Below are positions 37,776 through 54,110 of a DNA stretch of 55,619 nt, one piece after another. The notes under the pieces are model-generated. The model had not been told where the DNA came from, ran no database searches, and saw nothing but the letters and a program-made list of their open reading frames with translations. Made by a program: the position numbers and the translations under genes. Where the stretch lies: contig VXRD01000007.1 of assembly GCA_009838845.1 (NCBI GenBank), forward strand, positions 1 to 55,619. The letters run 5' to 3'. Every line of letters starts with the position of its first letter. The first letter of the stretch is position 1. The DNA is from Gemmatimonadota bacterium (lineage in GTDB: Bacteria > Latescibacterota > UBA2968).

Positions 37776-37847
37776 TTTCGGCAATTCTGGAAAAATTCCT
37801 CTGTAAACACAAAGGAAAGCGGATACGAGATTGGAAGAGGTAAAAGC

Positions 37848-38243
37848 ATGACCATCAAACGCGCAGAACTGGACCGACGAGAGATCGATTTCTCGGATGT
37901 GGTCTCCGGACACCAGCTATCGCCTGTACATCCTGGTGAAATCCTGCGCGATGAGTTTCTTATTCCGATGAATCTCAGTGTGACTCGCCTTGCTCAAGGG
38001 ATCAAGGTTTCGGAGAAGGACTTAGACGCTATCGTGCATGGAATTAATGGAATTACAATCGATACCGCGCTACGCCTTGGTCACTACTTTGGCATGACCC
38101 CTGAGTTCTGGATGAATCTTCAAACCCACTACGATCTCGATGTCGCCGAGCACACAGTACGTCTCAAAATTGAGCGGGAGATAGAGCCGTATGCTGAGTT
38201 CGCACCATCTTCCGACTCAGCACGGCAAATGGACACAACATGA
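37848..38243 (+). CDS. HigA-family XRE antitoxin-like regulator
   Basis: The 131-residue protein has the characteristic HigA opening SPVHPGEILRDEFLIPMNLS near residue 25. A helix-turn-helix follows (VTRLAQGIKVSEKDLDAIVHG), then the family's ITIDTALRLGHYFGMTPEFW. Proteins of this type bind their own promoter and neutralise a toxin. The usual HigB (RelE-like) toxin gene is absent upstream, where only about 200 non-coding bases separate it from the enolase gene. The next gene overlaps by ATGA. AGAGG lies 6 bases before the ATG. Confidence 0.88.
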   Translation: MTIKRAELDRREIDFSDVVSGHQLSPVHPGEILRDEFLIPMNLSVTRLAQGIKVSEKDLDAIVHGINGITIDTALRLGHYFGMTPEFWMNLQTHYDLDVAEHTVRLKIEREIEPYAEFAPSSDSARQMDTT

Positions 38244-38647
38244 TCTCTATTTCGACCCTGAAGAAAATTTTATCCCGACAAGACGGCCGGGAGCAACTTC
38301 GAACTCCGAAACACGAGGAAGCCAACTTGCGTTTGCAATACCGCAAGCTGGATGTAGGATATCTGTCTCTCTATGACGGAAAGTGGCATTTCGAGTACAC
38401 CGATGATTTCCGGTGCCAGACGAATGTTTGCCCTCTCATTGACTTTCCCCATACAGACAAGCCCTACGAATCCGAAGTATTGTGGCCGTTCTTCGCTATT
38501 CGCATCCCCGGCCTGGGACAACCAGCTGTCCAGCGCGTGATCCGCGAGGAGAACCTCGATAAACATAACGAAGCCCAACTTCTCAAGCGTTTTGGCAAAA
38601 TGACAATCGCAAATCCGTTCATCCTGACCCCAATCTCTCAGGAGTGA
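38240..38647 (+). CDS. Stand-alone HipA N-terminal-domain protein (HipS-like)
   Basis: The 135-residue protein matches the N-terminal subdomain of HipA. VGYLSLYDGKWHFEYTDDF lies near residue 38. PLIDFPHTDK and PFFAIRIPGLGQPAVQRV follow, ending with LLKRFGKMTIANPFIL. No kinase domain follows, and a terminator lies 34 bases downstream. In HipBST systems a protein of this size (HipS) is separate and acts as the antitoxin; here the partner kinase (HipT) is missing from the window. Start ATG overlaps the HigA stop, so the pair is co-translated. Assignment to the domain is fairly clear; the function is not. Confidence 0.8.
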   Translation: MISISTLKKILSRQDGREQLRTPKHEEANLRLQYRKLDVGYLSLYDGKWHFEYTDDFRCQTNVCPLIDFPHTDKPYESEVLWPFFAIRIPGLGQPAVQRVIREENLDKHNEAQLLKRFGKMTIANPFILTPISQE

Positions 38648-38680
38648 AAATCACGCTGTTTTATCCGTCGCGTTTCACAA

Positions 38681-38720
38681 GCCGCCACTCGCGCTTCTGT
38701 GAGTGGCGGTATCTTTTTTT
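38681..38720 (+). terminator. Intrinsic terminator of the HigA/HipA-N unit
   Basis: A perfect 9-base-pair stem (CCGCCACTC and GAGTGGCGG) with a 10-base loop is followed by TATCTTTTTTT. It lies 34 bases after the HipA-N stop. The remaining gap to the minus-strand kinase gene (to 38847) shows nothing else. Confidence 0.88.
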
Positions 38721-38847
38721 ACCAACCAAATCGCATTGCCCCTGCATTTGATCTATCACCGTAACTGCACAAAACCTCTTTTTCTAAATTGGTGAGAAAA
38801 ATCCCATCCTCATTTATCTTCCCTACAAAGATGTAAAGAAGCAAGAG

Positions 38848-40725
38848 TTAAAAACGCAGGGCAACTCGAAAACCGTTGCTGAGGTCCCGGATAACGGTGT
38901 AAATCCCACTGCGATTCGCCGAACGCAAGACCCACGGTTCGTCGTACCACGAACCACCACGCAACACGCGCCTATCGCAACTACCAGACTCCCACGCAGA
39001 ACCGTCGGTAGGTGCGCCCACATAGCTATCATTCCAACAGTCTTCCACCCACTCCCACACATTGCCGTGCATATCGTGAATGCCCCAAGCATTGGCTCTG
39101 AAACTACCCACTAGTGCCGTCTTGTCAGCATCCCACCGACTGCCACAACCATCGCAATTGGCACGGTTGCGACCTATCTCGTTGCCCCAGCTATACCGTG
39201 TATCCGTACCTGATCGCGCCACATACTCCCATTCTGATTCACTCAGCAATCCATATTTATGGCCCGTCCTTGCAGACAACCAACGCACATAAGACTGCGC
39301 ATCTTTCCAACTCACATTGATCACCGGACGATTCCCACGGCCCCAACCCTCATCAGAAACATACCTATCGCAACCACCAGCATCTGCACATGCATCCCAC
39401 TCGGCAAACGTTACCTCATACACGCCCACTGCAAACCGATAATCTATACGCACAGCATGACGAGGACCCTCATCATCATGGCCTTTCTCCCCGCTGGGAG
39501 ACCCCATCGTGAACGAACCTGATGGGACCACCACCATCTCCGGACATTCATTACAGTCCCTGAATCTCCCGACTACCCTCTGTTCTTGACGACGCGCTGA
39601 CTCACGCGCCGCATCTACCCCTACTGCTTCCTGTGTCCGACGACGCTGATCGGGGAGATAATAATAATAGACGACGGCACAGGCCCACAGAGCAACCACG
39701 CAGGCAAACGCAACAAATAACTTTCCTTTGGACTTAGTGGAATGATGCACAGGTGGGGCATCATCTCTCTCTTGATCCTGCACTTCTGATCGGGTTGCGG
39801 TTTCAGACCTTGTGACTGACAGTTCCTCATCCACACTACCTGGTACCTCCCCCTCCAGCGCAACACGCCAAGCTGCCACACTTTGCGGGCGATCCCCTTC
39901 ATCCACTGCCAACGCCCAATCTATCGCCGATAAAAATCCAGCACTCGCTTGACCCGCACATCGCTCAACTACTGGGATCAGAGGATCATCACGCATCCGA
40001 TCTGTCGCATCATCCGGAACCTCACCCGTCAATGCGCGGTAGCATACGCCCCCCAACGTATAGATGTCTGTCCATGGGCCCTGATCACCCCGACTCGAAT
40101 ACTGCTCTATCGGCGCATATCCCGGCGTGATAATTGACGTAACTGAACGGCTCCTTGCACCTATCGCCTGACGCGCTGAACCAAAGTCCAACAACACAGG
40201 CGAATTGTCCTCGTCTCGGATGATGATATTGCCAGGCTTAATATCTCGATGCAAAAAATCAGCCCTGTGCACCACCTCCAGACCATCAAGGATCGGATAC
40301 AGTATGGATTTGAGCTCAGATTCTTTCAATGTCCCTTTGCGTTCCAAAAACGCCGATAAGGTCTCACCCTCAGCATATTCCATCACGATATACGCCGTAC
40401 CATGTGCCTCAAAGAAACGATACACCTTAATAATGTGGCGATGATCAAAGCGAGCTAAGGCACGCGCTTCATCCACGAAGCGATCTAATCCCCACTCAAA
40501 ATCACCTCGAAACTGGCTCGCTTGTGGCACAACGCTATTATCACCTGTACGTGTAGCAATATCAGACGGCAGGTATTCCTTGATAGCAACGGCTTTGTCC
40601 AAATTGTGGTCAAAGCCGAGATAGGTCATGCCGAATCCCCCAAAGCCGAGGACACGTACCAGTTCGTATTCCTGAAGTCGGTGCCCTTGTGGCAGGGCGT
40701 TAAGAGGTTGTTGTGCTTCGTTCAC
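38848..40725 (-). CDS. Membrane Ser/Thr protein kinase with C-terminal SUMF1/FGE-like domain
   Basis: The 625-residue protein starts with GTG (AAGGA upstream; GTGA overlap with the PP2C stop). Residues 20-280 are a Hanks-type kinase with VAIKEYLPS, HRDIKPGN, LLDFGSAR and SIITPGYAPIEQY, so it looks active. A helix at about 345-370 spans the membrane. Residues 390-625 resemble the SUMF1/FGE domain (VVPSGSFTMGS, GNVWEWVEDCW, GFRVALRF). The two catalytic Cys of formylglycine-generating enzyme are absent, since the region reads GGSWYDEPWVLRSANRS. It may sense or bind an outside ligand. Its kinase half shares a 248-base identical stretch with the second kinase. Confidence 0.92.
   Translation of the reverse strand: MNEAQQPLNALPQGHRLQEYELVRVLGFGGFGMTYLGFDHNLDKAVAIKEYLPSDIATRTGDNSVVPQASQFRGDFEWGLDRFVDEARALARFDHRHIIKVYRFFEAHGTAYIVMEYAEGETLSAFLERKGTLKESELKSILYPILDGLEVVHRADFLHRDIKPGNIIIRDEDNSPVLLDFGSARQAIGARSRSVTSIITPGYAPIEQYSSRGDQGPWTDIYTLGGVCYRALTGEVPDDATDRMRDDPLIPVVERCAGQASAGFLSAIDWALAVDEGDRPQSVAAWRVALEGEVPGSVDEELSVTRSETATRSEVQDQERDDAPPVHHSTKSKGKLFVAFACVVALWACAVVYYYYLPDQRRRTQEAVGVDAARESARRQEQRVVGRFRDCNECPEMVVVPSGSFTMGSPSGEKGHDDEGPRHAVRIDYRFAVGVYEVTFAEWDACADAGGCDRYVSDEGWGRGNRPVINVSWKDAQSYVRWLSARTGHKYGLLSESEWEYVARSGTDTRYSWGNEIGRNRANCDGCGSRWDADKTALVGSFRANAWGIHDMHGNVWEWVEDCWNDSYVGAPTDGSAWESGSCDRRVLRGGSWYDEPWVLRSANRSGIYTVIRDLSNGFRVALRF
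40268..40515. repeat. Copy A of a 248-bp identical segment in the two kinase genes
   Basis: This stretch matches 43757-44004 at every base, in the same orientation, by direct comparison. It codes the N-terminal part of the kinase domain up to about the catalytic loop. Outside it the two genes differ at many positions, so either a recent duplication with selection or gene conversion is likely. Confidence 0.9.
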
Positions 40726-41930
40726 CTCGTTCCTTTCGATTGGGTCGTAGTGTCGGGTGTTGTTGATCGCTGCGCTGGAATGTCTTCGGTTTCTTTCTTC
40801 GATGATTCCTCATTCACCTTGCCTGTGTCGAGTTGTGCTGGCGCATCCTTTGCAGGTGGCTCTGCCTGTGGAGATTTGCCCCCGGTCTGCACTTCTGGCA
40901 AATCAGAAGTAATCGTTTCCGTGCCAGTAGCTGGTGGAGAAACATCCTGTTTAGTAGGCTCTTCCTGCGGTGCCTCTGGAGGTTCAATCGCCGCCTCTTT
41001 ATCAGACATGTGCGACGTAAGCCAATAAACCACTCCAAGTGCTATCAAGACCCCGTATAACGATATCCAAAACAGGCTCTTCTTTCGTCCTTGTCGCTGA
41101 AGACCCTCGCGCTGTTTGGACTCCTCCTGAACAGCATCAAAGGGAAGCTCTTCCACCCCACAATCTGTCTCCGGAGCATAGAGCAACACCGTAGTATTGT
41201 CCTGATTGGGATGTCCGACTTCTTCCACAGCATGTATAAGTGCCTCAACGACTTCTGACAGAGTATCATCCTGCATGTCCTGTAAAATACCCGCAATCTC
41301 CTCATCCTCCAGTGTCATTAAACCATCACTCGCCAATAACAGGCGGTCGCTTTTCCGAATAGCAACAGGTTGCGAGGAGACATCAATCATGTGAATTTCA
41401 TCGCCCATAACCGCCGAGCGTAGAGCGTGGCGTTTGGGATCCGTCGCCGCTTCTTCCTCAGTCATACGCCCAACCGCCACCAGGTTCGCAAGCACTGGTG
41501 CCATCGAATGATCGGCATTGAGACGGTGTAACTTGCCATCGCGGAACAACCACAAAGGAGAATCGCCCACGCTGATCCAGTCGAGTCCGTGTTGTGAAAC
41601 AACGGCTGCGACCACAGTCGATCCCATGCCCTCCAATTCAGGGTTTTCTTTGATTGCTTCGGCGAGGGCATCATTGGCCGCATTGAGACAGACCCGGAGA
41701 CGATCTGGAATCGGCCCATCCGTGTCGTGATAGATCTCCACAAAGGTCTTGACCACCGTCCTGCTCGCCGTACCGCCGCTGACGTGCCCACCCATCCCAT
41801 CAGCTATCAACAAGACTTCGCTCCCATCAGCATCGGGATCACCCGGCTCAATCAGGCCGTAATCGTCCTCCTGATATTCCCGTCCACCGGGAATTTGCTG
41901 CGCGGCAAATCGTCCGTCTAAAAGATCCAT
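40722..41930 (-). CDS. PP2C-type Ser/Thr phosphatase with membrane anchor
   Basis: The 402-residue protein has a PP2C domain at about 1-250. Metal-binding acidic sites appear in QEDDYG and LLIADGMGGHVSGG, with GDSPLWLFRDG and HPNQDNTTVLL further on. A helix (KKSLFWISLYGVLIALGVVYWL) crosses the membrane near residue 290, followed by a Pro/Glu/Thr-rich tail of about 90 residues that would lie outside. It should reverse the phosphorylation made by the two kinases beside it. The gene sits between them, 4 bases overlapping the downstream kinase. Confidence 0.92.
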   Translation of the reverse strand: MDLLDGRFAAQQIPGGREYQEDDYGLIEPGDPDADGSEVLLIADGMGGHVSGGTASRTVVKTFVEIYHDTDGPIPDRLRVCLNAANDALAEAIKENPELEGMGSTVVAAVVSQHGLDWISVGDSPLWLFRDGKLHRLNADHSMAPVLANLVAVGRMTEEEAATDPKRHALRSAVMGDEIHMIDVSSQPVAIRKSDRLLLASDGLMTLEDEEIAGILQDMQDDTLSEVVEALIHAVEEVGHPNQDNTTVLLYAPETDCGVEELPFDAVQEESKQREGLQRQGRKKSLFWISLYGVLIALGVVYWLTSHMSDKEAAIEPPEAPQEEPTKQDVSPPATGTETITSDLPEVQTGGKSPQAEPPAKDAPAQLDTGKVNEESSKKETEDIPAQRSTTPDTTTQSKGTR

Positions 41931-42000
41931 ATACTTCCTCTTAATCGCGTGTTCTACCTGAGCACGATTATCAGTATTACTGTGTATGCACTCATGGCCT

Positions 42001-42189
42001 TCATCGGGCCGCGTTCAAAACTGACCACAGGTGGATCAACCAGCCCATCCAGATAAACCACAGGATAGCCGCCAGAACAAATTGGAAAAGGGCAATTAGC
42101 AAACGTCCCTGAAGCAACTGCCCCAAACTCGGAATAAAAAAACTACACAAAGCTGCAAGAACATTACCGCCCGAACCTTGTCCCGCCAT
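42001..42189 (-). CDS. Small two-helix membrane protein
   Basis: From the ATG at 42187-42189, with AAAGGAGG 8 bases upstream, the product is 62 residues. A longer frame to 42213 would include that site. LAALCSFFIPSLGQLLQG and ALFQFVLAAILWFIWMG are two hydrophobic segments. The pattern (short helix, FIPSLGQLxQG, helix, W-x-W) resembles small 'TM2/YqaE-like' proteins, but I cannot name a family. Its place between the kinase-ankyrin and PP2C genes suggests a part in the same membrane complex. Confidence 0.75.
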   Translation of the reverse strand: MAGQGSGGNVLAALCSFFIPSLGQLLQGRLLIALFQFVLAAILWFIWMGWLIHLWSVLNAAR

Positions 42190-42240
42190 ACTATTTCCTC
42201 CTTTTATCGACATTAATAAAACCGCGTTGCCCCAACACTG

Positions 42241-44214
42241 CTATTTTTCTCGCCCTCCATAACGACGCAACACCTCAGCGGCCTCACGAGCATTTTGCCC
42301 AATCGCAAGGCGTAGCGGCGTCACTCCATTAATCTTCGCGTTGACATCGGCTCCATGTTTGAGCAATACCTCTACCATCCTATGAGCGTTTTTCTGCGCC
42401 GCCCAGTGCAGCGGCGTTCTGCCAGTGTTGTCTTTTGCGTGGACATCGGCGCCTGACTTGAGCAATATTTCGGCTGTCGCAGAAGCATCTTGCAACGCCG
42501 CCGAGTGTAGTGGCGTCCTGCCTTCGTTGTTTTTGGCGTATATATTGGTGCTGGCCTTGAGCAATATTTCGGCTGTCGCAGAAGCATCTTTATACGCTGC
42601 CCAATGCAGCGGCGTATTGCCATCATTATCTTTTGCGTTTATATCGGCTCCTGACTTGAGCAGGAATATAGTCAGCATAGGTAAGTTCAGTTTCGCTGTA
42701 ATGTGCAGGTCCGTCTCACCCTTGTGTCTTCCCCTCGGCTGTGGCATGCGCCCTACCTTTGCGACAAATGCCTGACGCTGCTTTTCCAATAATGCCGCTT
42801 GCTCTTGACGTTGCTTCTCAGCCTGTTCGGCTACCAGTCTTGCTTGCTCTTGACGTTGCTTTTCCAATAATGCTGCTTGTTCCTGACGCCGCTTCTCAGC
42901 CTGTTCGGCTACCCATCTTGCTTGCTCTTGACGCTGCTTCTCAGCCTGTTCTTGACGCCACCTCTCCGCTTGGCGTGATGATGACAAACGACTTTCCAAT
43001 TCTGACAACATAGGCGCATCTGAATCAATCACACGTATCGAATCCACATAGATACCCGCTATAATGAAATCCTTATCCTTCAAAGCTTCCTTAAATTTCT
43101 CCTCATACCGTTCAATTTTGGCCTGAGATTTTTTGTTTTCCCACCACAAATACCCCCCTAAACTCACAAGCAATAGACACAAACCCAAAGCTCCCCACAG
43201 CACCTTGCCGTGGACCCTTGGTTGTCGCTCTGACTCGGATGCAACAACTTGAGACACAGCAGATGGTGTACTTGCCTCCTCAACAGGAGCAACAGAAATC
43301 GAACTGTCGTCGCCTGATGGAAAAGCAGTGACTGTCGTCCCTTCCAACTTTGCACGCCATTCAGTGATACTCTGCGGACGATCTCCCTCATCCACAGCCA
43401 ACGCCCAATCTATTGCAGACAGAAATTCTGCACTCACTTGACCTGCACATCGCTCAGACACTGGAATCAGAGGATCATCACGCATGCGATCCGTCGCATC
43501 ATACGGCACTTCACCAGTCAATGCTCGATAGCATACACCGCCCAATGCATAGATATCTGTCCAGGGGCCTTGATCTCCCCGACTCGAATACTGCTCTATC
43601 GGCGCGTAACCCGGCGTAATAATTGACGTAACTGAACGACTTCGAGCACCTATTGCCTGACGTGCTGAACCAAAGTCTAACAACACGGGCGAATCATCCT
43701 CATCACGAATGATGATGTTACCCGGCTTGATATCTCGATGCAAAAAATCTGCCCTATGCACCACCTCCAGACCATCAAGGATCGGATACAGTATGGATTT
43801 GAGCTCAGATTCTTTCAATGTCCCTTTGCGTTCCAAAAACGCCGATAAGGTCTCACCCTCAGCATATTCCATCACGATATACGCCGTACCATGTGCCTCA
43901 AAGAAACGATACACCTTAATAATGTGGCGATGATCAAAGCGAGCTAAGGCACGCGCTTCATCCACGAAGCGATCTAATCCCCACTCAAAATCACCTCGAA
44001 ACTGACTCGCTTGTGGGGCAACACTGTTATCGCTTGTACGGGTAGCAATATCGGATGGGAGGTATTCTTTGATAGCAACGGCTTTGTCCAGATTGTGGTC
44101 AAAGCCGAGATAGGTCATGCCGAATCCGCCAAAGCCGAGGACACGTACCAGTTCGTATTCCTGAAGCCGGTACCCCTGGGGTAAGGCGTTAAGGGGTTGT
44201 TGTGCATCGTTCAT
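42241..44214 (-). CDS. Ser/Thr protein kinase with membrane helix, coiled coil and ankyrin repeats
   Basis: The 657-residue protein has an N-terminal kinase (VAIKEYLPS, HRDIKPGNIII, LLDFGSARQ, TPGYAPIEQY) with nearly the same sequence as the neighbouring kinase. A membrane helix follows at about 345 (GKVLWGALGLCLLLVSLGGY). Residues 400-490 are a charged coiled coil of repeated AEKQRQEQARLVAEQ-type units. The last 170 residues carry four ankyrin repeats (DGNTPLHWAAYKD, EGRTPLHSAALQD, TGRTPLHWAAQKN). Ankyrin repeats bind proteins, so the tail probably recruits a target. The ATG has an Arg-rich gap region upstream rather than a strong site. Confidence 0.92.
   Translation of the reverse strand: MNDAQQPLNALPQGYRLQEYELVRVLGFGGFGMTYLGFDHNLDKAVAIKEYLPSDIATRTSDNSVAPQASQFRGDFEWGLDRFVDEARALARFDHRHIIKVYRFFEAHGTAYIVMEYAEGETLSAFLERKGTLKESELKSILYPILDGLEVVHRADFLHRDIKPGNIIIRDEDDSPVLLDFGSARQAIGARSRSVTSIITPGYAPIEQYSSRGDQGPWTDIYALGGVCYRALTGEVPYDATDRMRDDPLIPVSERCAGQVSAEFLSAIDWALAVDEGDRPQSITEWRAKLEGTTVTAFPSGDDSSISVAPVEEASTPSAVSQVVASESERQPRVHGKVLWGALGLCLLLVSLGGYLWWENKKSQAKIERYEEKFKEALKDKDFIIAGIYVDSIRVIDSDAPMLSELESRLSSSRQAERWRQEQAEKQRQEQARWVAEQAEKRRQEQAALLEKQRQEQARLVAEQAEKQRQEQAALLEKQRQAFVAKVGRMPQPRGRHKGETDLHITAKLNLPMLTIFLLKSGADINAKDNDGNTPLHWAAYKDASATAEILLKASTNIYAKNNEGRTPLHSAALQDASATAEILLKSGADVHAKDNTGRTPLHWAAQKNAHRMVEVLLKHGADVNAKINGVTPLRLAIGQNAREAAEVLRRYGGREK
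43757..44004. repeat. Copy B of a 248-bp identical segment in the two kinase genes
   Basis: Identical to 40268-40515 at all 248 positions. It lies at the same place in the kinase domain of the second gene. Confidence 0.9.
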
Positions 44215-44249
44215 AGCATTTCTCTTGATGATGTATTTTTTCCGTCAAA

Positions 44250-44394
44250 AAAATAACAATCAAAACCTTCTGGATTGCGGCTAAGATCATGCCGCAATGA
44301 CAATCAAAACTACTGGATTACTGGCGTTGTAGTGAGGATATCCCCTGCCTCCGGTAGGCGCGTGGTGACTCGACGCCCTGCCGCAATGACAATC
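44250..44394. repeat. Short intergenic repeats and hairpin
   Basis: TGCCGCAATGACAATC occurs twice in direct orientation, at 44290-44305 and 44379-44394. Next to the first copy, ATTGCGGC and GCCGCAAT form an 8-bp perfect stem around a 9-base loop. CTGGATT also recurs. No T-tract follows, so it is not a clear terminator. This fills most of the 181-base gap between the kinase-ankyrin gene and the FHA gene. Confidence 0.6.
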
Positions 44395-44395
44395 G

Positions 44396-45046
44396 CTATT
44401 CCTGACTCTCTTCTGTATCCTGCCAATCAAATGCATCGCCGCATAAGGGCATAAATCGCAGAACCGTATTGCCGATGCTAATATGGCTCAACGCGGGCAG
44501 TTCAACCGGGGTAAGCACGGGCTGATCATTGAGGTAGGTTAGATTAGTACCCCCACCGTGCTGCACATAAAACTTCCTGCCACGCGGATCATAGGTCACA
44601 GTAGCATGTCCGCCACGCGAAATTTGATCATCACCGAAATTGAGATTGACGCGGTCAGTTTCTCCGCGTCCAATCGAATTAGAACCATAACCCAATTGCA
44701 TGGCCCTTCCTTTTCCTGGTCCCTTGACAATAACCAACCATCCCACAACCGGATCATCCATACCGTTGGATTCCTCAGCGCGTTCTTCCAGACGCGCTTG
44801 ATCTTCCTGCCTGCGACGACCACCTACGATCCGGGTCTTTTCTTCAGGAATCGCTTGGGATTGAGAACCGCTCGCATCCATCTTTTGAGTAGGTGCATCC
44901 AAACGCCCAGAACCAGCGGCTTGATCACCGCCCGGTGGTGCTGGCGGCATCGGCCTTTGTGCCCTATCAGTCGGCTGGGTCGCATCTTCTCCTTTATTCG
45001 TTTTCTCTTCAATAATCTTACCATCGGGTCCGCGATAAACAGGCAT
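44396..45046 (-). CDS. FHA-domain protein with disordered N-terminus
   Basis: The 216-residue protein has an N-terminal Pro/Gln/Gly-rich linker of about 95 residues. A C-terminal FHA domain follows: LVIVKGPGKGRAMQL, NSIGRGETDRVNLNF, ISRGGHATV and FYVQHGGGTNLTYLN. Arg in SIGR and Ser-Arg in ISR keep the phosphothreonine-binding pattern. FHA domains bind phosphothreonine, so it is a natural reader of the kinases encoded in this cluster. It lies 12 bases after the MotA-like gene. Confidence 0.9.
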   Translation of the reverse strand: MPVYRGPDGKIIEEKTNKGEDATQPTDRAQRPMPPAPPGGDQAAGSGRLDAPTQKMDASGSQSQAIPEEKTRIVGGRRRQEDQARLEERAEESNGMDDPVVGWLVIVKGPGKGRAMQLGYGSNSIGRGETDRVNLNFGDDQISRGGHATVTYDPRGRKFYVQHGGGTNLTYLNDQPVLTPVELPALSHISIGNTVLRFMPLCGDAFDWQDTEESQE

Positions 45047-45058
45047 AACACTACCCTC

Positions 45059-45844
45059 CTATTTTTCATAAAGTCGGTTGATTAAATTATCCAAACAGTA
45101 CTGGCCCGATTGATTCAAAGCCATCTCTTCTCTACCTTGCGCGATATGCAGTGCAAAAACCAACAGTGCTGATTGAATCAGAGCGAGTAAGGTCGTGTAA
45201 AACGCGACACCCAGCCGCCCGGTGATCTGCGCCAGCAACTTTGGATCTTGTGGATTTTCAACACTCGCCGCATAATCCAGTGCAAACGCAATCCCCACCA
45301 CCGTGCCAATAAAACCCATCGTAGGAATCAGCCAGACGAGATATCGCAGCATAGTATATTTGAGTTCAAGTTCGTGCTGAAATAATTCCAGAGAAGAATT
45401 TAACAGAGAATTGGTCTGATTGACCGATCTGCTCCCCTGAAATTGCAAAATACAGCGCGCGATTAAGCGTTGTAAAAAGAAAGTCCGTTCCCCATCCATG
45501 GGGCGCATCTTTTGATAGAGAGTTCCCAGGTCCTGTGCCCGCAACATGGTCTCTTCATCTTCTGGAAGGTATCGCCTGGAGATCTGTGCCAACTCCAAAT
45601 TGGACTGGTTGAATCGCCCCCACAACTCGCCACATCCCATGCAAAACATCAGCCACATGACATTCTGGATCGTAAATGGATAAGGAAAATTTTCCGTGTG
45701 GCGATCGAGCAAAAAAGCACCCACCTGTGAATCGGGATTATCAAAGATAGTACTCAGCAGCGCAATAAGGACAATACCGATTCCCAAACCGATGCCAGAT
45801 GCAATGAGGCGTTGATTTATTTCCACTGTTTGATCCGTTGCCAT
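45059..45844 (-). CDS. MotA/TolQ/ExbB-like ion-channel subunit
   Basis: The 261-residue protein has helices near 15-34, 58-75, 166-189 and 210-233. The last two carry the family marks: WLIPTMGFIGTVVGIAFALDY (the TolQ/ExbB GLLGTVWGI position) and RLGVAFYTTLLALI (the ALxTTxxGL position). MotA, TolQ and ExbB form pentamers that conduct ions and drive a partner. The partner here is probably the next upstream gene's membrane-anchored VWA protein. The cytoplasmic region of about 90 residues between helices 2 and 3 is shorter than MotA's. It lies 1 base from the FHA gene. Confidence 0.9.
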   Translation of the reverse strand: MATDQTVEINQRLIASGIGLGIGIVLIALLSTIFDNPDSQVGAFLLDRHTENFPYPFTIQNVMWLMFCMGCGELWGRFNQSNLELAQISRRYLPEDEETMLRAQDLGTLYQKMRPMDGERTFFLQRLIARCILQFQGSRSVNQTNSLLNSSLELFQHELELKYTMLRYLVWLIPTMGFIGTVVGIAFALDYAASVENPQDPKLLAQITGRLGVAFYTTLLALIQSALLVFALHIAQGREEMALNQSGQYCLDNLINRLYEK

Positions 45845-45845
45845 G

Positions 45846-46211
45846 TCAGTCCTCGTCTCCTATAATTTCACCCGTATCTACATTGCGACGCACTGGCCCC
45901 TCGGGCAAATCATCCTTGCGTCTTACAATATCCCGGTCGCCTTGCTTAACCATCGCCATAAGTTGCTGTGCGGTCGTCTGATACCGACCGAGCAAAATTG
46001 CATCCATCGGAGCTATAAAACCCTGCGTAATAGGCTGCCACTCGCCATTTCGCGCAACACAACTTCCGCCGCTACTACCGCAATCGGTTAGATAGTACGC
46101 CCCCTTCGCAGTCACAACCAATTCCGCCTGAACGCGAGACACTGTGCTGTCATCAATGCGAATATCCACATCCGAACCGCGACCAATTCGATAAATAGAA
46201 AATTTAGACAT
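45846..46211 (-). CDS. Small FHA-like protein
   Basis: The 121-residue protein is essentially one FHA fold at residues 1-80, with IYRIGRGSDVDIRID and STVSRVQAELVV. The usual SRxH reads SRVQ, and the usual DLNSxNGT reads DCGSSGGSC, so two ligand-contact positions vary. The Arg and Ser of the core remain. The last 40 residues are charged and probably flexible. It sits between the VWA-anchor gene and the MotA-like gene and may regulate the motor in response to phosphorylation. Confidence 0.85.
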   Translation of the reverse strand: MSKFSIYRIGRGSDVDIRIDDSTVSRVQAELVVTAKGAYYLTDCGSSGGSCVARNGEWQPITQGFIAPMDAILLGRYQTTAQQLMAMVKQGDRDIVRRKDDLPEGPVRRNVDTGEIIGDED

Positions 46212-46223
46212 CTCGAAATCCTC

Positions 46224-47240
46224 TCAACCGGGTTTGGCACCTACGAAGTAACCACCATTCCGCTTTGTCAACTGCACCAGAAAATCGATAAAATCTCGTT
46301 TTGTGACATAGATGCCAATAGCGACAGCGTGTATCGGTATTTTTTTTCTATTTTGAGCCGTTACAGCATTGACGACCTGCCGCCAATCTTCCGAGGGAGC
46401 ACCATCGCTCAATAGAATAATCTCTTCGGGATTAAGCGCCAGTGCTGCCGTCAGAGCTTCGCGGGTTGGCGTACCACCATCCACGAGACCCATCCAATTG
46501 TTTATGGTCGCTACAACGCGATTTCGCGTATTCTTCTGTACTCGAAAATAACGCCTATTTTCAGGCCAAAAATGCAATCGCGCCCTGCGATTTGGGGAGT
46601 GAAAACCAATAAGAACCAATTCTATTTCCGATTGAAAAGAAGCAAGCATATCTCGTACTGACAATGTGATGAATTGGCGATAGTCTTGTCCACGAGGTTG
46701 ATAAATACTGCCTGACATATCCACTACAATGACAAATTTTCTTGCTGTGGTCTTAATACCCAGTAAAACAGATGTGCCATTGAGTTGCTTTTCCAGAGCT
46801 TTAATTCGTTCTTCAAGTGGATTATTTTGGGGTTTCGGGGCTTTAGTCCGCTCTTGTTCCAGCTTAGCTCTTTCTTGTTCCAGTTTGGCCATTTCTTGTT
46901 CCAGTTTGACCCGCTCCTGTTTTAATCTGATCTGCTCTTGTTCCAATCTGGCTTTTTCTCGCTGCAGTTCAGCATCTTCAACCTTTGTTTTTGGAACTTT
47001 GGCTTTCTCCTGTTTCAATTTAGCCCGCTCTTGTTCCAACCCAGTCCTTTCCTGCCTTAGTTTAGCCCGCTCTTGTTCCAATCTGGCTTTTTCTTCAACT
47101 ATACGTTTTGATGAATCGCCCAGATTTGGAAAAAAGGGAAACAACACAATGGTAATCAAAATAAAAGCTCCCATTGCCGAAGCGAATAAATCGAGCGCAG
47201 ACATGCTAAAAATGTTAATTTCTCGGCTGCGTTTTTTCAT
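46224..47240 (-). CDS. TolR/MotB-like anchor with coiled coil and VWA domain
   Basis: From the ATG at 47238-47240 the product is 338 residues; a longer frame to 47288 would run into the upstream protease gene. Residues 8-38 (INIFSMSALDLFASAMGAFI onward) form one membrane helix with Asp17 near its start, as in TolR, ExbD and MotB. Residues 45-135 are a long coiled coil of EQERAKL-type repeats. Residues 168-330 form a VWA domain with MIDAS residues Asp174, Ser176, Ser178, Thr257 and Asp279. Here the usual OmpA or TolR C-terminal domain is replaced by VWA. It should pair with the MotA/ExbB-like channel. Confidence 0.9.
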   Translation of the reverse strand: MKKRSREINIFSMSALDLFASAMGAFILITIVLFPFFPNLGDSSKRIVEEKARLEQERAKLRQERTGLEQERAKLKQEKAKVPKTKVEDAELQREKARLEQEQIRLKQERVKLEQEMAKLEQERAKLEQERTKAPKPQNNPLEERIKALEKQLNGTSVLLGIKTTARKFVIVVDMSGSIYQPRGQDYRQFITLSVRDMLASFQSEIELVLIGFHSPNRRARLHFWPENRRYFRVQKNTRNRVVATINNWMGLVDGGTPTREALTAALALNPEEIILLSDGAPSEDWRQVVNAVTAQNRKKIPIHAVAIGIYVTKRDFIDFLVQLTKRNGGYFVGAKPG

Positions 47241-47253
47241 TTCCAGGATGCTC

Positions 47254-48555
47254 CTATTCCAACTTTGAAACTCTGAACTCCAAACCACCCAATCTCACTA
47301 AAGCCCCATAGTCTAAAAGCATGGGCTGAAACGGAGACAATTTGTGGTGATTCAGAAAAGTCCCGTTACGCGAGTTCAAATCTTCAATATAAAACTGACC
47401 CGCTTGTACAGCTATTCGCGCATGCCGTCTCGATACATTTTGGTCCTGTATAATTTCATTCACCAACTCGGGATGCCTGCCCAAAGAAATTCCCAAACGC
47501 TGCCCCGCGAATCTGTTTGGCGGTAAAGCAATGCGGATGGGATTGCCATTACCATCAAACCCGGCCAGCATCAGACCGTGTTCTGGAAGTTTTTCGGTTA
47601 CTCGTTTTTGGACAGTTCCGATGGGTTCTTTTGCTTTTAAGTGCTGGCTGATATACTCTGCGACGTGAATGATTTGTTGCCGGGGCTTCTTCAAGGCAAG
47701 TATCAGGGCAGCCAAAGCCACAGCACCCAACAATATAATCCAAATAAGAAATCTCTGGCTCGCATCGTCGGCTTGAGTCTTTGTTCGTTCTGCCTCCGCA
47801 GAACGCCCGGTAGAATCAGCCGTCAAACACGCATCGTCCTCAGATTGAAAAGAGATTGCGTTGTCGCGTAACAGCTTGGCCAACTCCTCAATATGAGAAG
47901 ACCAGTAAATACCCGCCGCGTGATGAACTCGCGTTACCCCATCAGATGGACCAGCAATGACGACAAGTGATGCCTGCGTATTAACTCCAATCACCCTTCC
48001 GCAGTCGTCCAACAAAGGGCCGCCGCTATTACCGGGGTTCGTAGGCGCGTTGTGTTGAATAATCCTGAATTTTTGAGTCTTCCATGCACCTGAAAAAATT
48101 CTACCAATAACACCATCCTGTACAGTTGGATCATAGGCAGGTCTGTTCCTATCGGCTCCCCCCGGATAACCGATAGCCCACACCTTCTGCCCCTTCCTCG
48201 ATGGCGCGAGCGAAAGCGTAATCGGTGGAAGATTGATCCCCGGCGCGCGTACGATTGCCAGATCGAATTCATAGGACATGGCAATTACGTCAACATCGTA
48301 CAGGGTATTGGAATTTGTCGGTATTGTTTTGATCAAACTGCCATCGGCAATAACGTGTACATTCGTGGCGATATAACCCCGATCGTTGATCACAAATCCA
48401 GTACCCGTACCAATCCCCTGACTTGTCTTCGTCACAATACGCACAACACTCTTCTCAAGCGCTTCAAAGTCTGGCGCAGCAACAGCATCGCGAAAAAAAA
48501 ACAGAAACACGAGAACAAGACCGACAAGACGCCAATATTTGCATATCAGTTGCAA
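47254..48555 (-). CDS. Trypsin-like serine protease with membrane helix and FHA domain, active-looking
   Basis: The 433-residue protein starts with TTG, 6 bases after GGAG. A signal peptide is followed by a trypsin-like domain with His67 (TNVHV), Asp98 (FDLAIV) and Ser177 (PGNSGGPLL), a complete triad of the HtrA-like type. A membrane helix spans about 269-288. The C-terminal FHA domain (345-433) has LGRHPELV, VSRRHARI and DLNSRNGTFL, all canonical. The protease should be outside the membrane and the FHA domain inside, a plausible signal link. No PDZ domain is present. Confidence 0.92.
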   Translation of the reverse strand: MQLICKYWRLVGLVLVFLFFFRDAVAAPDFEALEKSVVRIVTKTSQGIGTGTGFVINDRGYIATNVHVIADGSLIKTIPTNSNTLYDVDVIAMSYEFDLAIVRAPGINLPPITLSLAPSRKGQKVWAIGYPGGADRNRPAYDPTVQDGVIGRIFSGAWKTQKFRIIQHNAPTNPGNSGGPLLDDCGRVIGVNTQASLVVIAGPSDGVTRVHHAAGIYWSSHIEELAKLLRDNAISFQSEDDACLTADSTGRSAEAERTKTQADDASQRFLIWIILLGAVALAALILALKKPRQQIIHVAEYISQHLKAKEPIGTVQKRVTEKLPEHGLMLAGFDGNGNPIRIALPPNRFAGQRLGISLGRHPELVNEIIQDQNVSRRHARIAVQAGQFYIEDLNSRNGTFLNHHKLSPFQPMLLDYGALVRLGGLEFRVSKLE

Positions 48556-48558
48556 TTT

Positions 48559-50148
48559 TCACTCCTGCATCAAACGTACCTGAAAAACAACAGGCCCCAC
48601 CTCGAGTTGGTCATTGTTTTGCAACACCGCAGGTTCGCGCGGATTGAGCAAGCGTCCGTTAATTCTGGAACCATTCGTACTACCCAGATCCTCTACATAG
48701 AGATTTCCGTCAGCATACAAAAGCCTGATGTGTTCGCGGGATACGGACTCGTGGTCAATAATAAATTCCGCGTTGGCAGGGCTTCTTCCAAGCGTGACAC
48801 CTGAAGGCAGAGCCAATGCTGGGATACTCAACGCAAAGGGTTGGCCCGTGTTGTCCTGACCCTCTAATAGACATCTGAAAGGTGCAAACTGTGGTGCCTC
48901 AGACACAGCTTGTCGTGCGGCTTCGGCCTCTTGTTCTGCCTCGCTCAAACGAGAAGCAGTCGCTTGCAATTGTGCCCTTTTCCTGCGTGCGAACATAAAC
49001 CAGCCGAAAAGCACCAGAATGACCAGAATACCCCCGGAGACGATGGCCCATTGTAATCTTTGCGATGTCTTTTCACGCTCTTCTTGATGTACTGCGGCGA
49101 GACTATCTGCCGCTGATTTTTGAGCAGCAATACGCTCCTGTGTCGCCTTCTTTAATGAATCTGTCCTCGCCTTCTCCTGTTCTAATGCCAGCCGCGCTGT
49201 ATTGATACTATCTTGTGCTGCCTTAACACTATCTGCCGCTGCCTTACTTGCTAAGTCTGCCTGTGCTTTCGCCTTTTCGGCTGCCAGCCGAGCGGCTTCT
49301 GCTTTTTCAGCCGCCTGTTGTTTTTCTTTGACAGCTTTTTCAGCCGCCAATCGGGCAACCCTTTCTGCGCTAACACTATCTCTTGCTGCTTTTGCTACCG
49401 CTTTGATACTATCTTCTGCGATTTTTCTATCTCGTTCAGTACGTTCAACGGCACTCAAACATTCTTCTTTAACTACTGAATGTGTAATTTCCCGGTCTTT
49501 GAGCACAGCAATGATATCGACGCTACGCAAGGCAAAAACTGTTCCTCTGGGTTCCACATTTTTCCGAAACGGCCAGGATCCGCTCTTCGGGTCTGGCAGA
49601 TTGATAGCGACAACATCACCACACTCATTAAACAGAGGCATACCAAATGCTTTGGAAGTCACCATGGCATTGTGCTGTAGCAGATGTGCCACGGGATCAC
49701 TCACCTTTTTTCCCGGCACATCCTGGTATGTACCAATAGTCCCGCGGGCAATCTGGATACTATCCTGAGGCGTCAGCTTCAGGGTTTCCACCATCCGGCC
49801 CACAGCGGCTCCTCGCTCGGATAAATTGAGAGGCAGTAAACCTAGACCCTGTGCGCGCAACAAAGCGAGATTCAATTCACGATTGGCAAAGACCTGCTGT
49901 GACACGATCTCGGCACCAGTCTTTCGAGCCCGGACAGTCAATCCCTCCGCATCCGCCAGGAGATGGGCATTCGTCAGCACATACCCCTCTTCATTCACAA
50001 CAAAACCGCTTCCCTCAGCCAAAATCTTATGATTCTTGTACACACGCACCTGCACGATGCTCTCAGATACGACAGCAACATCTATTTCCGCAAATACAGG
50101 GCTGAGGAATAGGAACATCACGAAATGCACAAAAAGAAAAACACGCAT
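48559..50148 (-). CDS. Pseudoprotease with coiled coil, membrane helix and FHA domain
   Basis: From the ATG at 50146-50148, with AAGGAG 6 bases upstream, the product is 529 residues. The trypsin-like domain keeps His62 (TNAHLL). The Asp position is Asn93 (ELNLALL), and the Ser loop reads MVTSKAFGMPLF, with Phe167 where the sister has the catalytic Ser. The domain is therefore probably inactive. Residues 240-360 are an Ala/Lys/Glu-rich helical stretch, a helix crosses the membrane near 385 (WAIVSGGILVILVLFGWFMF), and the last 95 residues are a canonical FHA domain (LGRSPANAE, VSREHIRL, DLGSTNGSRI). It is probably the first gene of the ten-gene unit. Confidence 0.9.
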   Translation of the reverse strand: MRVFLFVHFVMFLFLSPVFAEIDVAVVSESIVQVRVYKNHKILAEGSGFVVNEEGYVLTNAHLLADAEGLTVRARKTGAEIVSQQVFANRELNLALLRAQGLGLLPLNLSERGAAVGRMVETLKLTPQDSIQIARGTIGTYQDVPGKKVSDPVAHLLQHNAMVTSKAFGMPLFNECGDVVAINLPDPKSGSWPFRKNVEPRGTVFALRSVDIIAVLKDREITHSVVKEECLSAVERTERDRKIAEDSIKAVAKAARDSVSAERVARLAAEKAVKEKQQAAEKAEAARLAAEKAKAQADLASKAAADSVKAAQDSINTARLALEQEKARTDSLKKATQERIAAQKSAADSLAAVHQEEREKTSQRLQWAIVSGGILVILVLFGWFMFARRKRAQLQATASRLSEAEQEAEAARQAVSEAPQFAPFRCLLEGQDNTGQPFALSIPALALPSGVTLGRSPANAEFIIDHESVSREHIRLLYADGNLYVEDLGSTNGSRINGRLLNPREPAVLQNNDQLEVGPVVFQVRLMQE

Positions 50149-50452
50149 GATGATCTCCTTCATAAACGAAGAAAATGGGTGGACATGAAGGATTCGACAT
50201 AAATAACTCAAGTTGTGTGGTCTTAGAGTTACTCCGTTTTGGTAGATCGTATCGAAGGTTCACCCCAGTCATCCTGAGCTATCTGTTTTGCATAGGTCCG
50301 CGTCCTTCGCACGTCATATTTGCGCGGGGACACACGGGGACGTACCGAAAATTTGAAGACCGTTGAGAAAAAGAATTTTTAATTTAAGTGCAAAAAGCGT
50401 GCCAATGTGAGCGGTGTCCAGAAAGTTATATTCGTAACGCGTTGTTTTACAT

Positions 50453-50512
50453 AAAGAAAAAGAGCCAATCTGACTATATCATAATGTCGCAAGATAGTCG
50501 GATTGGCTCTTT
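50453..50512 (-). terminator. Long hairpin, probable minus-strand terminator
   Basis: Arms AGAGCCAATCTGACTAT (50461-50477) and ATAGTCGGATTGGCTCT (50494-50510) pair with one mismatch. On the minus strand TTTTTCTTT follows. It could be a second terminator behind the PIN toxin operon. Confidence 0.5.
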
Positions 50513-50539
50513 GCAAGACCTTATATGGTCTTAAAAGAC

Positions 50540-50574
50540 GTACTATGGTCTCAATGGTCCCGAGACTATAGTAC
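50540..50574. other. Imperfect 13-bp hairpin
   Basis: GTACTATGGTCTC (50540-50552) pairs with GAGACTATAGTAC (50562-50574) with one mismatch and a 9-base loop. It lies inside the 399-bp element and has no T-tract. Confidence 0.45.
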
Positions 50575-50615
50575 ATTCTTCATTATCATTATACCACACA
50601 ACTTGAATGAAATAT

Positions 50616-50661
50616 AAAAAAAGAGGTTCCAGATACCTGTCTGCACAGGCCCTGGAACCTC
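50616..50661 (-). terminator. Intrinsic terminator of the PIN toxin operon
   Basis: GAGGTTCCAG (50623-50632) pairs with CTGGAACCTC (50652-50661), and an inner CCTGT/ACAGG stem extends it. On the minus strand CTTTTTTTATAT follows directly. Confidence 0.85.
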
Positions 50662-50779
50662 CCGAAGAAATTTATCTCGCCTTACTCAACAACATTAAAA
50701 TTTCCGTACACGAGACAAGAAACCATCAGACATAGACTGAGCCAACTCATCGTTGAAAACCAGAACAAGATCAGGATAT

Positions 50780-51214
50780 TCAAGAATTAACCTGCATATC
50801 CAAGAAAGCCCTGGGCGTGAGAATGGGTATATCTTGAAAATCACTTAAGGCAGTAAGGTGTCGATCTCCAGAGATGATGTAATCTGCCTCGGCTTCAAGA
50901 GCGCACCCCAGCACCATATTATCATCAGGATCCGCATCTATCAAGTTTACTTCTCTATGACCAGCGGTTAATTCCGCTATCGCAACAATCTTATCTACGA
51001 TCTCTCCTGCCTGCTCAACGGTCTTTCCCCCTCTTTTTAGCAAATCAGCCATCTTTTCATAATGAATGACGCGCTGAATTTCATCTATAAGAGGTGCAGA
51101 GAGACAAAGAGATGCTTTCTGGTCAAAGACCAGATCGAGTATAATGCCTGGACTCCCGTGCGGATTCAGAATAGCACTGATTAATACATTGGTATCCAGC
51201 ACAATTCGCGTCAT
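50780..51214 (-). CDS. PIN-domain ribonuclease toxin (VapC-like, COG1569)
   Basis: The 144-residue protein has the PIN acidic sites: Asp7 (IVLDTNVLISA), DADPDDNMVLGCA near residue 92 and ISGDRHLTAL near 113. The opening MTRIVLDTNVLISAIL and the DPDDN motif fit the putative-toxin PIN family paired with short antitoxins. PIN toxins usually cut RNA. The ATG overlaps the antitoxin stop as ATGA. Confidence 0.9.
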   Translation of the reverse strand: MTRIVLDTNVLISAILNPHGSPGIILDLVFDQKASLCLSAPLIDEIQRVIHYEKMADLLKRGGKTVEQAGEIVDKIVAIAELTAGHREVNLIDADPDDNMVLGCALEAEADYIISGDRHLTALSDFQDIPILTPRAFLDMQVNS

Positions 51215-51453
51215 GATCTTTGCGCTCTTACTGCCCGTCTGGACTCACCAATAATCTGTTCAATCTCCTCGGAGGATATATCCTTAAAGCCTGCCCGGAA
51301 CTGCGCCACGGCCTCTCGGATATCTTCGCGTGTCTGTGAGGACTCATCCTCTATGATAATGAAGGCTCGAGCCTTAGTCGTCTTAGGCTTCCCCGTGGCC
51401 TCGAGCCGTTCAATCAGTGCGCCAATGGTGGTATTGGTCTCGGTAATTTTCAT
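51211..51453 (-). CDS. Antitoxin of the PIN toxin
   Basis: The 80-residue protein lies directly upstream of the PIN gene with an ATGA overlap, the standard antitoxin-toxin order. It contains FIIIEDESSQTREDIREAV and EEIEQIIGESRRAVRAQR. I cannot name its DNA-binding fold, so the call rests mostly on position, size and charge. The opening KITETNTTIGALIERLE has no recognised motif. Confidence 0.75.
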   Translation of the reverse strand: MKITETNTTIGALIERLEATGKPKTTKARAFIIIEDESSQTREDIREAVAQFRAGFKDISSEEIEQIIGESRRAVRAQRS

Positions 51454-51470
51454 ATTTTCCTCGACACACT

Positions 51471-52016
51471 TTATTCCACAACATCAAAGTCATGGAAATC
51501 TTCGCCAGCTTCGAGCGATAGAATTTCCAGAGCCGTTGCGGCGCCTTGCCCGGCGGAAATAATCGCCTGCGTGCGGATGAGACGCGTATTCCAACCCACT
51601 GCAAAAAGTCCTTCGACGGAGGTGCGACCATCTCCATCGGCAACAATACCCTTATTCTCCTTGGCCAAACTCAAACCTTCAGCCAATTTGGTATTTGTGC
51701 CAGTCGCCAAAATGAGATACTTCCCTTCTCTTCGATCTCCATCCCCCGTTGTAACCACAAACCCACCATCGGTCTTTTCGGCATCGGTCACTTCTACATC
51801 CTCAATTTTGCCCCCCAAATTCTGGACCTGCGCTCGACCTACCCGCTGAAACTCACTCCCCGTCATCTCGGGAATGCCCAGATAATTGTAGAGCATCGCC
51901 TTGTGCATCGGCGTTCCATCTTGCCCAAACACCGTCACATTCTGACCATTCTTCGTCAAAAACAACGCGGCACTCAGTCCCGCAGGTCCATCGCCTATAA
52001 TCAAAACATCTGCCAT
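51471..52016 (-). CDS. Half-length thioredoxin-reductase-like FAD protein
   Basis: The 181-residue protein has an FAD-binding GDGPAG (residues 8-13) and the C-terminal FAD site TSVEGLFAVGWNTR near residue 132. The NADPH domain with its CxxC pair, found in the middle of full thioredoxin reductases (about 310 residues), is absent, and no frameshift is seen. It therefore needs another electron source or acts as a flavin carrier. It is followed after 17 bases by the antitoxin gene. Confidence 0.8.
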   Translation of the reverse strand: MADVLIIGDGPAGLSAALFLTKNGQNVTVFGQDGTPMHKAMLYNYLGIPEMTGSEFQRVGRAQVQNLGGKIEDVEVTDAEKTDGGFVVTTGDGDRREGKYLILATGTNTKLAEGLSLAKENKGIVADGDGRTSVEGLFAVGWNTRLIRTQAIISAGQGAATALEILSLEAGEDFHDFDVVE

Positions 52017-52070
52017 AACCTATCCTTTCATTTGGAATTTAGCTGTTCGATTGTTGACGCCTCTGTCAAA

Positions 52071-54110
52071 TTAGTATCCCGAACCAACTTCATCCAGTAA
52101 TTTTTCCAGTGCCTCAACATCTGTAACGGGTTCTGAGCACACAAAATTGCGACAGATATAAGCCGTGGCGCGTCCGTCGATCATACCGCGATTTTGCAGA
52201 AGTGGAATAGCGTCGGACACTGGATCACTTCCCCCACATAAAACGACATTGGGTCGCCATGTTTTATTCACCACATTGAGCAGCGCAACCGTATCCTCTC
52301 TATCTCGATCCCCCAAAACAGCGACTTCAACTGCACCTTGCAAATAGAGATCCAGGGCACAAACCATATTGCCAAAACCCGAAGGCACCTCCCGAATATG
52401 CCTGCCAAAAAGATGCAAAATACGGGTGGCCATATCCCGCCAATCTTCGCGCTCCAGCAGCGTTCCCAATCGCAGCAACGCCATCGCCCCCACCGAATTA
52501 CCGGACGGCGTGGCATTGTCAAAGGGATTTTTTGACCGCACAATCAGCTCCTCGTGATCTCTCCCAGTATAAAAAAATCCACCATCTTCTCGATCCCAGA
52601 ACTGATCTATCATCACCTCCATAAAATCGCGGGCAGCAACGAGATAAGAAGGCTCAAAACTCGCCTCGTACAAATCGACTAACCCAACGATCAAACAGGC
52701 ATAATCATCCTGATAGGCATTGAAACGCGCGCGACCGTCTTTATAAGTATGCAACAAAAGCCCGCGATCCGTACACATATTCCCCAGGATAAATTTAGCC
52801 GCATCTGACGCACTATCCAGATAAACGGAATCGCCAAATGCCCGATACGCCTGTGCAAAAGCCGAAATCATCATCCCATTCCAACTCACCTGAATTTTTT
52901 CATCGCGCCCGGGTTTTATACGCTCTTCTCGCGCCTCAAACAAAATCGCACATCCGCGTGCCATTGCGTTTTCATCAACCTCATAAACATGCGGGACATT
53001 CAGAATATTTTTCCCCTCGAAATTACCTCGCGCCGTCACATCGAAATACCGACAAAATACCGCCCCTTCTTCTTCGCCCAATAAATCCACCACCTCCTGC
53101 GGCGACCACACAAAAAACTTGCCCTCTTCCCCCTCGCTATCGGCATCTTGCGTAGAATAAAAACCGCCCTCTGGCGCGGTCATCTCTCGGCGCGTATAAT
53201 CCAGAATTGACCTGGCAATGCGCGCAAAAAGCGGTTGCTCAGTCACCTGATAAGTCTGCGTATAAAGCTGTGCGAGCAGCGCATTGTCATATAGCATCTT
53301 CTCAAAATGGGGTACAAGCCAGTAGCGATCCACAGAATAGCGGTGAAATCCCCCGCCGAGCTGATCGTAAATGCCCCCGCGCGCCATTTTTTCGAGCGTC
53401 AATGTCACCATCGCAAGTGCCTCTTCGTTCCCCGTACGCAAATAGGTCCGCAAAAACACATCGAGATTCATCGAATTTGGGAACTTAGGCTGTGTTCCAA
53501 ACCCGCCATTTTGAAAATCAAAATTCGATCTGATCTTTTGAAATGCACCGTCAAAATCCGTCTCAGTCAGGTCATCTGCCAACGCATCAATACGCGCCAT
53601 CGCTCGCAAGTGCTCGTGCAATCGATTCGCCACATCTGCGACATTATCACCTTTTTCCCGATAATGCCTGGCAACGGATTCCAGAACCTGGGGAAAGCCC
53701 GGTATGTTGTGCCTGCTCTCAGGCGGGAAATACGTGCCTCCGTAAAACGGAACACCCTGCGGAGTCAAAAACACACTCATAGGCCATCCACCTGAACCGG
53801 TCATAACCTGTACTGCATTCATATAAATTTCATCGACATCGGGGCGTTCTTCCCGATCGACCTTCACATTGACAAAATGCGCGTTCATAATCTGCGCGAT
53901 TTCCTCATTTTCAAAACACTCGTGCTCCATCACATGGCACCAGTGACAGGCCGCATATCCCACGCTCAAAAAAATGGGCTTGTCTTCGGCAGTAGCCTTT
54001 TCAAATGCCTCTTCTCCCCACGGAAACCACGCAACGGGATTGTGTGCATGCTGCAATAAATACGGGCTGGTCTCGTGGACCAATCGGTTGGTATCTCTTC
54101 TATCGTCCAT
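52071..54110 (-). CDS. Thioredoxin-domain DUF255 protein (YyaL/SPATA20 family)
   Basis: The 679-residue protein starts at the ATG at 54108-54110, with GAGG 5 bases upstream. It begins with the family's [22 protein letters not shown] thioredoxin-like domain follows with Cys55-x2-Cys58 ([13 protein letters not shown]) and the phrase [20 protein letters not shown]. The rest is an alpha/alpha-barrel-like region with [19 protein letters not shown], a common mark of this family. The function is unresolved; a role in redox or nucleotide-sugar chemistry has been suggested. It lies 7 bases after the phosphoesterase gene. Confidence 0.92.

Follow-up and report, generated by a model that had tools for sequence, protein, structure and literature searches.

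A large envelope machine, the type VI secretion system (T6SS), is controlled by a Ser/Thr kinase, a PP2C phosphatase and an FHA protein through the threonine phosphorylation pathway (PpkA/PppA/Fha; see PMC5995506). In archaea, ArnA and ArnB (an FHA and a vWA protein) jointly regulate components of the archaellum (PMC12852372, PMC6509490). Among ion-driven membrane motors, a paper of June 2025 (Mol Biol Evol msaf138) described 'TPH-vWA', in which a VWA protein replaces ExbD, TolR or MotB as the partner within the pore (PMC12204202). In this second family the vWA is tethered by a transmembrane (TM) segment, with an ExbD/TolR-like transpore helix and a conserved Asp, and the genes adjoin tolQ-like genes in the absence of tolR or exbD, mostly as heterologous pairs, a tendency and not a rule (PMC12204202). 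The published 5:2 model places a pair of Asp residues inside a ring of Thr residues, and the same paper also describes a side-binding vWA family (PMC12204202).

A MotA/ExbB-type gene and a VWA gene share a cluster with kinase, phosphatase and FHA genes

The window analyzed here, a stretch of 55,619 nucleotides, belongs to a 5.75-Mb genome of 172 contigs; the named genomes close to it are for the most part Candidatus Latescibacterota MAGs. Nine genes on the minus strand, running from 50211 down to 38848, encode in order a pseudoprotease-TM-FHA protein, an HtrA-TM-FHA protein, a VWA protein, a small FHA protein, a MotA/ExbB-type protein, an FhaB-like FHA protein, a Ser/Thr kinase with ankyrin repeats, a PP2C phosphatase and a Ser/Thr kinase with an FGE-like domain (Table 1). 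A preliminary description had paired the MotA/ExbB-like protein with the VWA protein, and the positions, proteins, motifs and residue numbers that it gave were all correct. It included neither the small FHA gene, which is all that separates the two motor genes, nor the kinase/phosphatase/FHA/HtrA operon around them. Comparison with PHROGs returned nothing informative.

Table 1. Positions of the cluster genes in the window, and of two related Rhizobium plasmid genes
Feature	Position	Strand	Evidence
Trypsin-like pseudoprotease, TM helix, cytoplasmic FHA	48559..50211	-	Trypsin_2 E 1.4e-15; FHA E 5.4e-17; Asp and Ser lost
HtrA-type protease, TM helix, cytoplasmic FHA	47254..48555	-	Trypsin_2 E 2e-28; FHA E 3.8e-17; triad intact
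Putative B (shaft) subunit of 338 aa; single TM helix (Asp17), helical stalk of variable length, VWA domain, all five MIDAS residues	46224..47240	-	VWA_3 E 4.9e-8; fold match E 3.9e-8; Asp17; MIDAS
Small FHA protein, 121 aa, between both motor genes	45846..46211	-	PF00498 E 6.2e-12
MotA/TolQ/ExbB-type channel (A) subunit, 261 aa	45059..45844	-	PF01618 E 7.5e-11; TolQ Z 13.8; T181, T217/T218
FhaB-like FHA protein, 216 aa	44396..45046	-	PF00498 E 7.4e-8; FhaB_Rv0019c E 6.1e-14 (short of its cut-off)
Ser/Thr kinase, TM helix, coil, ankyrin repeats	42241..44214	-	Pkinase E 1.9e-40; Ank E 2.2e-29; HRD and DFG motifs
PP2C-type phosphatase, one TM helix	40722..41930	-	PP2C_2 E 8.9e-12; Stp1_PP2C_phos E 2.7e-42 (short of its cut-off)
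Ser/Thr kinase, TM helix, FGE-sulfatase-like domain	38848..40725	-	Pkinase E 6.7e-38; FGE-sulfatase E 1.6e-51
pRlBT01d shaft protein	L059:12769-13506
pRlBT01d FHA-ended VWA-like protein	L059:18877-20379

The channel protein resembles TolQ and ExbB

The channel protein scored 42.3 bits against the MotA_ExbB family (PF01618), for which the curated cut-off is 22.9. The FIGTVVGI (T181) and FYTTLL (T217, T218) sites previously reported for this protein were both confirmed, and the three threonines were invariant among 13 aligned channel sequences; the copy on a Rhizobium plasmid has FDGTLL in place of FYTTLL. An AlphaFold2 model built from 13 sequences (pLDDT 74) was compared with solved structures, and TolQ was the best match at Z 13.8, a value to be read with the caution for VIA-align that helical bundles without kinship can score about 13. 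Matches to ExbB (Z up to 12.6), ZorA (up to 11.0) and PomA/MotA (up to 10.1) followed, and the 32 top-ranked structural entries all belonged to one motor superfamily. Foldseek alone gave a best E of 2.7e-3. Three TM segments were clear by hydropathy, and the model has four long helices.

In a profile search, P174, T181, T217 and T218 of the channel, all four invariant in the 13 sequences, aligned with P151, T158, T185 and T186 of PomA (E 0.15); all sequence matches to PDB chains had E >0.1 and served residue alignment, not proof of kinship. The aligned PomA residues line the ion path, where there is a Na+ site (PMC10374538). Coupling to Na+ was rejected as a diagnosis from the T181/T217/T218 triple, since further A subunits encoded by this genome have Thr-Thr at that place too; these residues cannot tell Na+ use.

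The VWA protein combines a conserved membrane helix with a variable stalk

Translation of the VWA protein from the ATG at 47240 gives MKKRSREINIFSMSALD, with the Asp as residue 17; an upstream GTG (47288) is the less likely start. The position of Asp17 at the start of the single helix, noted in the preliminary description, was borne out, and the residue is invariant in 15 aligned sequences; like that of the channel threonines, this conservation exceeds what chance would give. Mean column identity was 0.90-0.92 across the shaft helix (residues 11-30) and far lower in most of the stalk, the length of which ranges from 48 to 124 residues among relatives. A coiled coil had been proposed for this stalk; a long predicted helix with a seven-residue repeat was indeed found, but the window sequence has a single clearly Leu-rich stripe.

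The VWA domain was predicted with a pLDDT mostly around 90 or higher and matched solved VWA folds at E 3.9e-8. Its match to VWA_3 lies above the curated cut-off; when the VWA profile was searched by sequence against PDB chains, no match came up at E 0.01. The MIDAS is intact, as had been claimed, with D174, S176, S178, T257 and D279 all present. These five positions are kept in the same-phylum copies, two with conservative S/T swaps. The MIDAS is broken in the second VWA gene of an alphaproteobacterial locus (L010), so that in pairs one head may have dropped metal binding. In the AlphaFold2 model the anchor helix had low confidence (pLDDT about 40). Judged from charge and by analogy, the N-terminus would lie inside, with the stalk and VWA domain in the periplasm, where the latter may act as an adhesion domain that is rotated or pulled.

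The two putative motor genes occur together and, in one genome, decay together

Strong matches to the channel and to the VWA protein were found in the same 11 genomes of the phylum sample. The chance of two identical sets of 11 is approximately 3e-12 by a count of combinations that ignores kinship, which cannot be ignored. Gene order is largely kept in all 11 carriers, one of which has a stop that splits the VWA gene (L051), and in most relatives the small FHA gene stays beside the channel gene. One VWA gene is present in the window and most relatives; there are two in G002, in G006 (second site) and in L010.

In a single-contig genome (G008) the search for VWA returned nothing beyond stalk-like noise, and all that remains of the channel gene (L057:8670-9366) is residues 179-261, preceded by a short stretch similar to the N-terminus. 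The joint loss of the VWA gene and most of the channel gene supports a joint function of the pair. The FHA, HtrA, kinase and PP2C genes persist in this genome, outliving the motor and indicating that the signalling part can persist on its own. Taken together, homology, synteny, identical carrier sets and joint decay in one genome support reading the pair as a putative motor with a VWA head, as the preliminary description did, but that reading is not new, being the published TPH-vWA proposal (PMC12204202).

The pair is probably a relative of TPH-vWA motors

Loci fitting the description of TPH-vWA were identified in a Pseudomonadota sample (L078-L082 and L084) and in a genome of the same class as the window (L058). 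Profiles of these loci, standing in for the Idiomarina sequences of the paper itself, were compared with the window proteins. The pair-type VWA profile matched the window VWA protein over its full length, helix on helix (E 2.6e-25), and the pair-type channel profile matched the window channel at E 1.7e-24. This strong homology indicates that the window pair is probably a relative of the published kind, and the surprise is limited accordingly, since the core idea of a VWA protein as shaft is already in print. The shared features comprise a TM-tethered vWA, an in-pore type of helix with a conserved Asp, an adjacent TolQ-like gene, a cluster lacking a TolR/ExbD gene, and a shaft helix lacking the SHLS motif; the window helix has no His either.

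The window differs in usually having one VWA gene where the published kind has a heterologous pair, and in its operon of kinase, PP2C, FHA and HtrA/pseudoprotease genes, which the text of the paper does not mention (PMC12204202). The pair-type loci have no kinase or PP2C genes beside the motor, which argues that phospho-control is no general need. In a channel tree, which is small and unrooted, the kinase-linked sequences, among them L010 and the Rhizobium copy, were split from the pair type with high local support. What appears to be new is the kinase-linked branch, with its conserved operon, usually one VWA gene, and presence also in an alphaproteobacterium. Searches of open-licence papers turned up no account of an operon uniting motor, VWA, FHA, kinase and PP2C genes, which is not proof of absence. 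The FGE-sulfatase-like domain occurs near both motor types, fused to the kinase in the window (38848-40725) and to PEGA repeats in pair-type loci (L078:9952-12018; L058:6745-9246).

TolQR and ExbBD provide the best structural matches for the channel, and there too the partner has a single helix with an Asp at its start. Unlike these, the window partner has a VWA domain instead of the ExbD/TolR periplasmic fold, and the cluster lacks a TolA/TonB-type gene. The VWA protein did not match the ExbD family (PF02472), nor did anything on the window's contig. Three ExbD-family genes are present in the same genome, all on other contigs, and their absence from the cluster was counted in favour of the VWA protein as B subunit.

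The ZorAB motor of Zorya shares the 5:2 fold (Z 11) and the setting in an accessory gene cluster. However, the cluster lacks ZorC, ZorD, an OmpA-type domain on the partner and the long ZorA tail; neither an OmpA nor a helicase domain was found among the nine cluster proteins. Zorya membership was rejected, the channel giving a weak partial match to ZorA2 (E 2.1e-4) and no ZorB match being found. Ser/Thr kinase, PP2C and FHA proteins are common to the cluster and the T6SS pathway, but a T6SS link is unsupported, as no T6SS structural family was found among the scanned cluster proteins. The ArnA/ArnB module similarly unites FHA, VWA and Ser/Thr kinase (PMC12852372, PMC6509490), whereas the window VWA sits on a membrane shaft and is periplasmic under the topology proposed above.

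Further channel-family genes were observed in other settings. On an Anabaena plasmid (L060:9779-12358), Cmr-type CRISPR genes lead straight into a gene for a MotA/TolQ/ExbB protein and, behind it, genes for two proteins with one helix each; a viperin-family gene lies downstream at a distance of a few kb. At L083:643-9121, a distant channel homologue (311 aa) lies beside a 2192-aa protein and two shorter proteins, both with a membrane segment near the N-terminus.

Signalling genes accompany the putative motor in two phyla

In genomes of the Latescibacterota group and in an alphaproteobacterium (L010), the motor is surrounded by genes for kinases, PP2C and FHA proteins. On Rhizobium leguminosarum plasmid pRlBT01d (L059) the channel, shaft helix and kinase/FHA genes are kept and the head differs: the shaft protein keeps the IFSMSVLDLFASALGGF helix with no VWA recognised by Pfam, and a weak VWA-like stretch (E 1.4e-3) is carried by a second protein, with an FHA domain at its end. 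With ring, shaft helix and phospho-signalling retained there under a different head, heads appear to be exchanged.

The HtrA-TM-FHA protein keeps its His-Asp-Ser triad, and the pseudoprotease lacks the Asp and Ser in every same-phylum copy. Where a genome has one full-length protease-like copy (L053, L055), the pseudoprotease is the copy retained. The FhaB-like protein has an N-terminal tail with a conserved E-E-K-T-R-(I/L/V)-V/A-G motif, EEKTRIVGG in the window. By likeness to GarA and OdhI, this motif is a candidate for phosphorylation by a kinase and for binding by an FHA domain. At two loci (L056:27-5817; L057:9392-17463) several related kinase genes stand in tandem beside the cluster, suggesting repeated duplication of the kinase part.

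A phospho-regulated motor is the favoured reading

We propose that the channel and VWA proteins would assemble 5:2 into an ion-driven membrane motor akin to ExbBD, TolQR, MotAB and ZorAB, with the VWA protein in the place of the B subunit. Its helix would lie in the pentamer pore with Asp17 carrying the ion, and the helical stalk would project the VWA head into the periplasm. Ion flow would turn the ring against the shaft, such that a partner held by the VWA head would be turned, pulled or pressed. The kinase, phosphatase and FHA proteins encoded around the motor suggest, by gene neighbourhood, that protein phosphorylation turns it on and off. The membrane Ser/Thr kinases and PP2C may set its activity via Thr sites such as that in EEKTRIVGG of the FhaB-like protein, and FHA proteins, including the FHA tails of the periplasmic protease and pseudoprotease, may thereby join or leave the cytoplasmic face of the motor. 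We regard this statement as a whole as somewhat probable, the motor by itself as more so, and each control step as less so.

It is rather unlikely that the motor is as described while the kinase/FHA genes form a separate signalling island, co-located or co-transferred and having no action on it. The retention of kinase, FHA, HtrA and PP2C genes in G008 after loss of the VWA gene and most of the channel gene, together with the pair-type motors that have no kinase or PP2C alongside, would be expected of such an island; against it stand the FHA gene lying between the two motor genes in an order kept across the phylum, and the recurrence of the association in an alphaproteobacterium and on the Rhizobium plasmid. 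A further explanation, which we consider unlikely, is a regulated ion channel or sensor instead of a working motor, with a ligand of the periplasmic VWA or pseudoprotease moving the helix to gate ions and the kinases relaying the signal. All solved relatives of the fold are 5:2 motors and the Thr and Asp residues along the ion path have been retained, even though the cluster is rich in signalling parts and candidate periplasmic sensors, including the conserved pseudoprotease, and the length of the stalk is not conserved, an unusual trait in a device needing fixed reach.

Very improbable is an arrangement in which a TolQ/ExbB-type motor has its pore filled by a TolR or ExbD from elsewhere and the VWA protein attached to its side in the manner of TolA or TonB. 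A side-binding vWA family has been described (PMC12204202) and the genome does contain ExbD-family genes outside the cluster, but the cluster itself has none, and the shaft helix has an Asp and lacks the SHLS motif and His, on which ground TolA/TonB-like side binding was disfavoured.

If true, the phospho-regulated motor would link eukaryote-type phospho-Thr signalling with a 5:2 ion motor, and no description of such a coupling was found; TPH-vWA motors would gain a testable mode of control and candidate partners. It would also suggest that the motor head is exchangeable while the ring, shaft helix and control genes stay. More tentatively, and in our view doubtful in its full extent, there may be a class of accessory envelope motors in which kinases and PP2C act via FHA adaptors on a 5:2 motor with an exchangeable periplasmic head (VWA or another fold), doing work or triggering a response, possibly against competitors or phages.

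The cluster occupies a variable site

The genes flanking the cluster are separated by 14.4 kb in the window (37654-52074) and by 19.2 kb in G004. The distance is only 0.7-1.3 kb in seven genomes of the genus (L089-L095), where the cluster is not present at the site, while in G006 and G002 it is located elsewhere. A hairpin-like stretch of 90 bases (window 50615-50701) is kept at all seven short sites, and the region of a 70-aa ORF (window 42001-42213) at four of them; in the window both lie between inserted pieces. The simplest reading is that the cluster was gained or lost as an island, in more than one piece. Within the stretches searched, neither ARAGORN nor Rfam detected a tRNA or other known RNA to account for the insertion site. 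Small gene pairs are present at both ends of the variable region (window 37848-38647 and 50780-51453), and by eye they look like toxin-antitoxin modules (HigA-like, PIN-domain).
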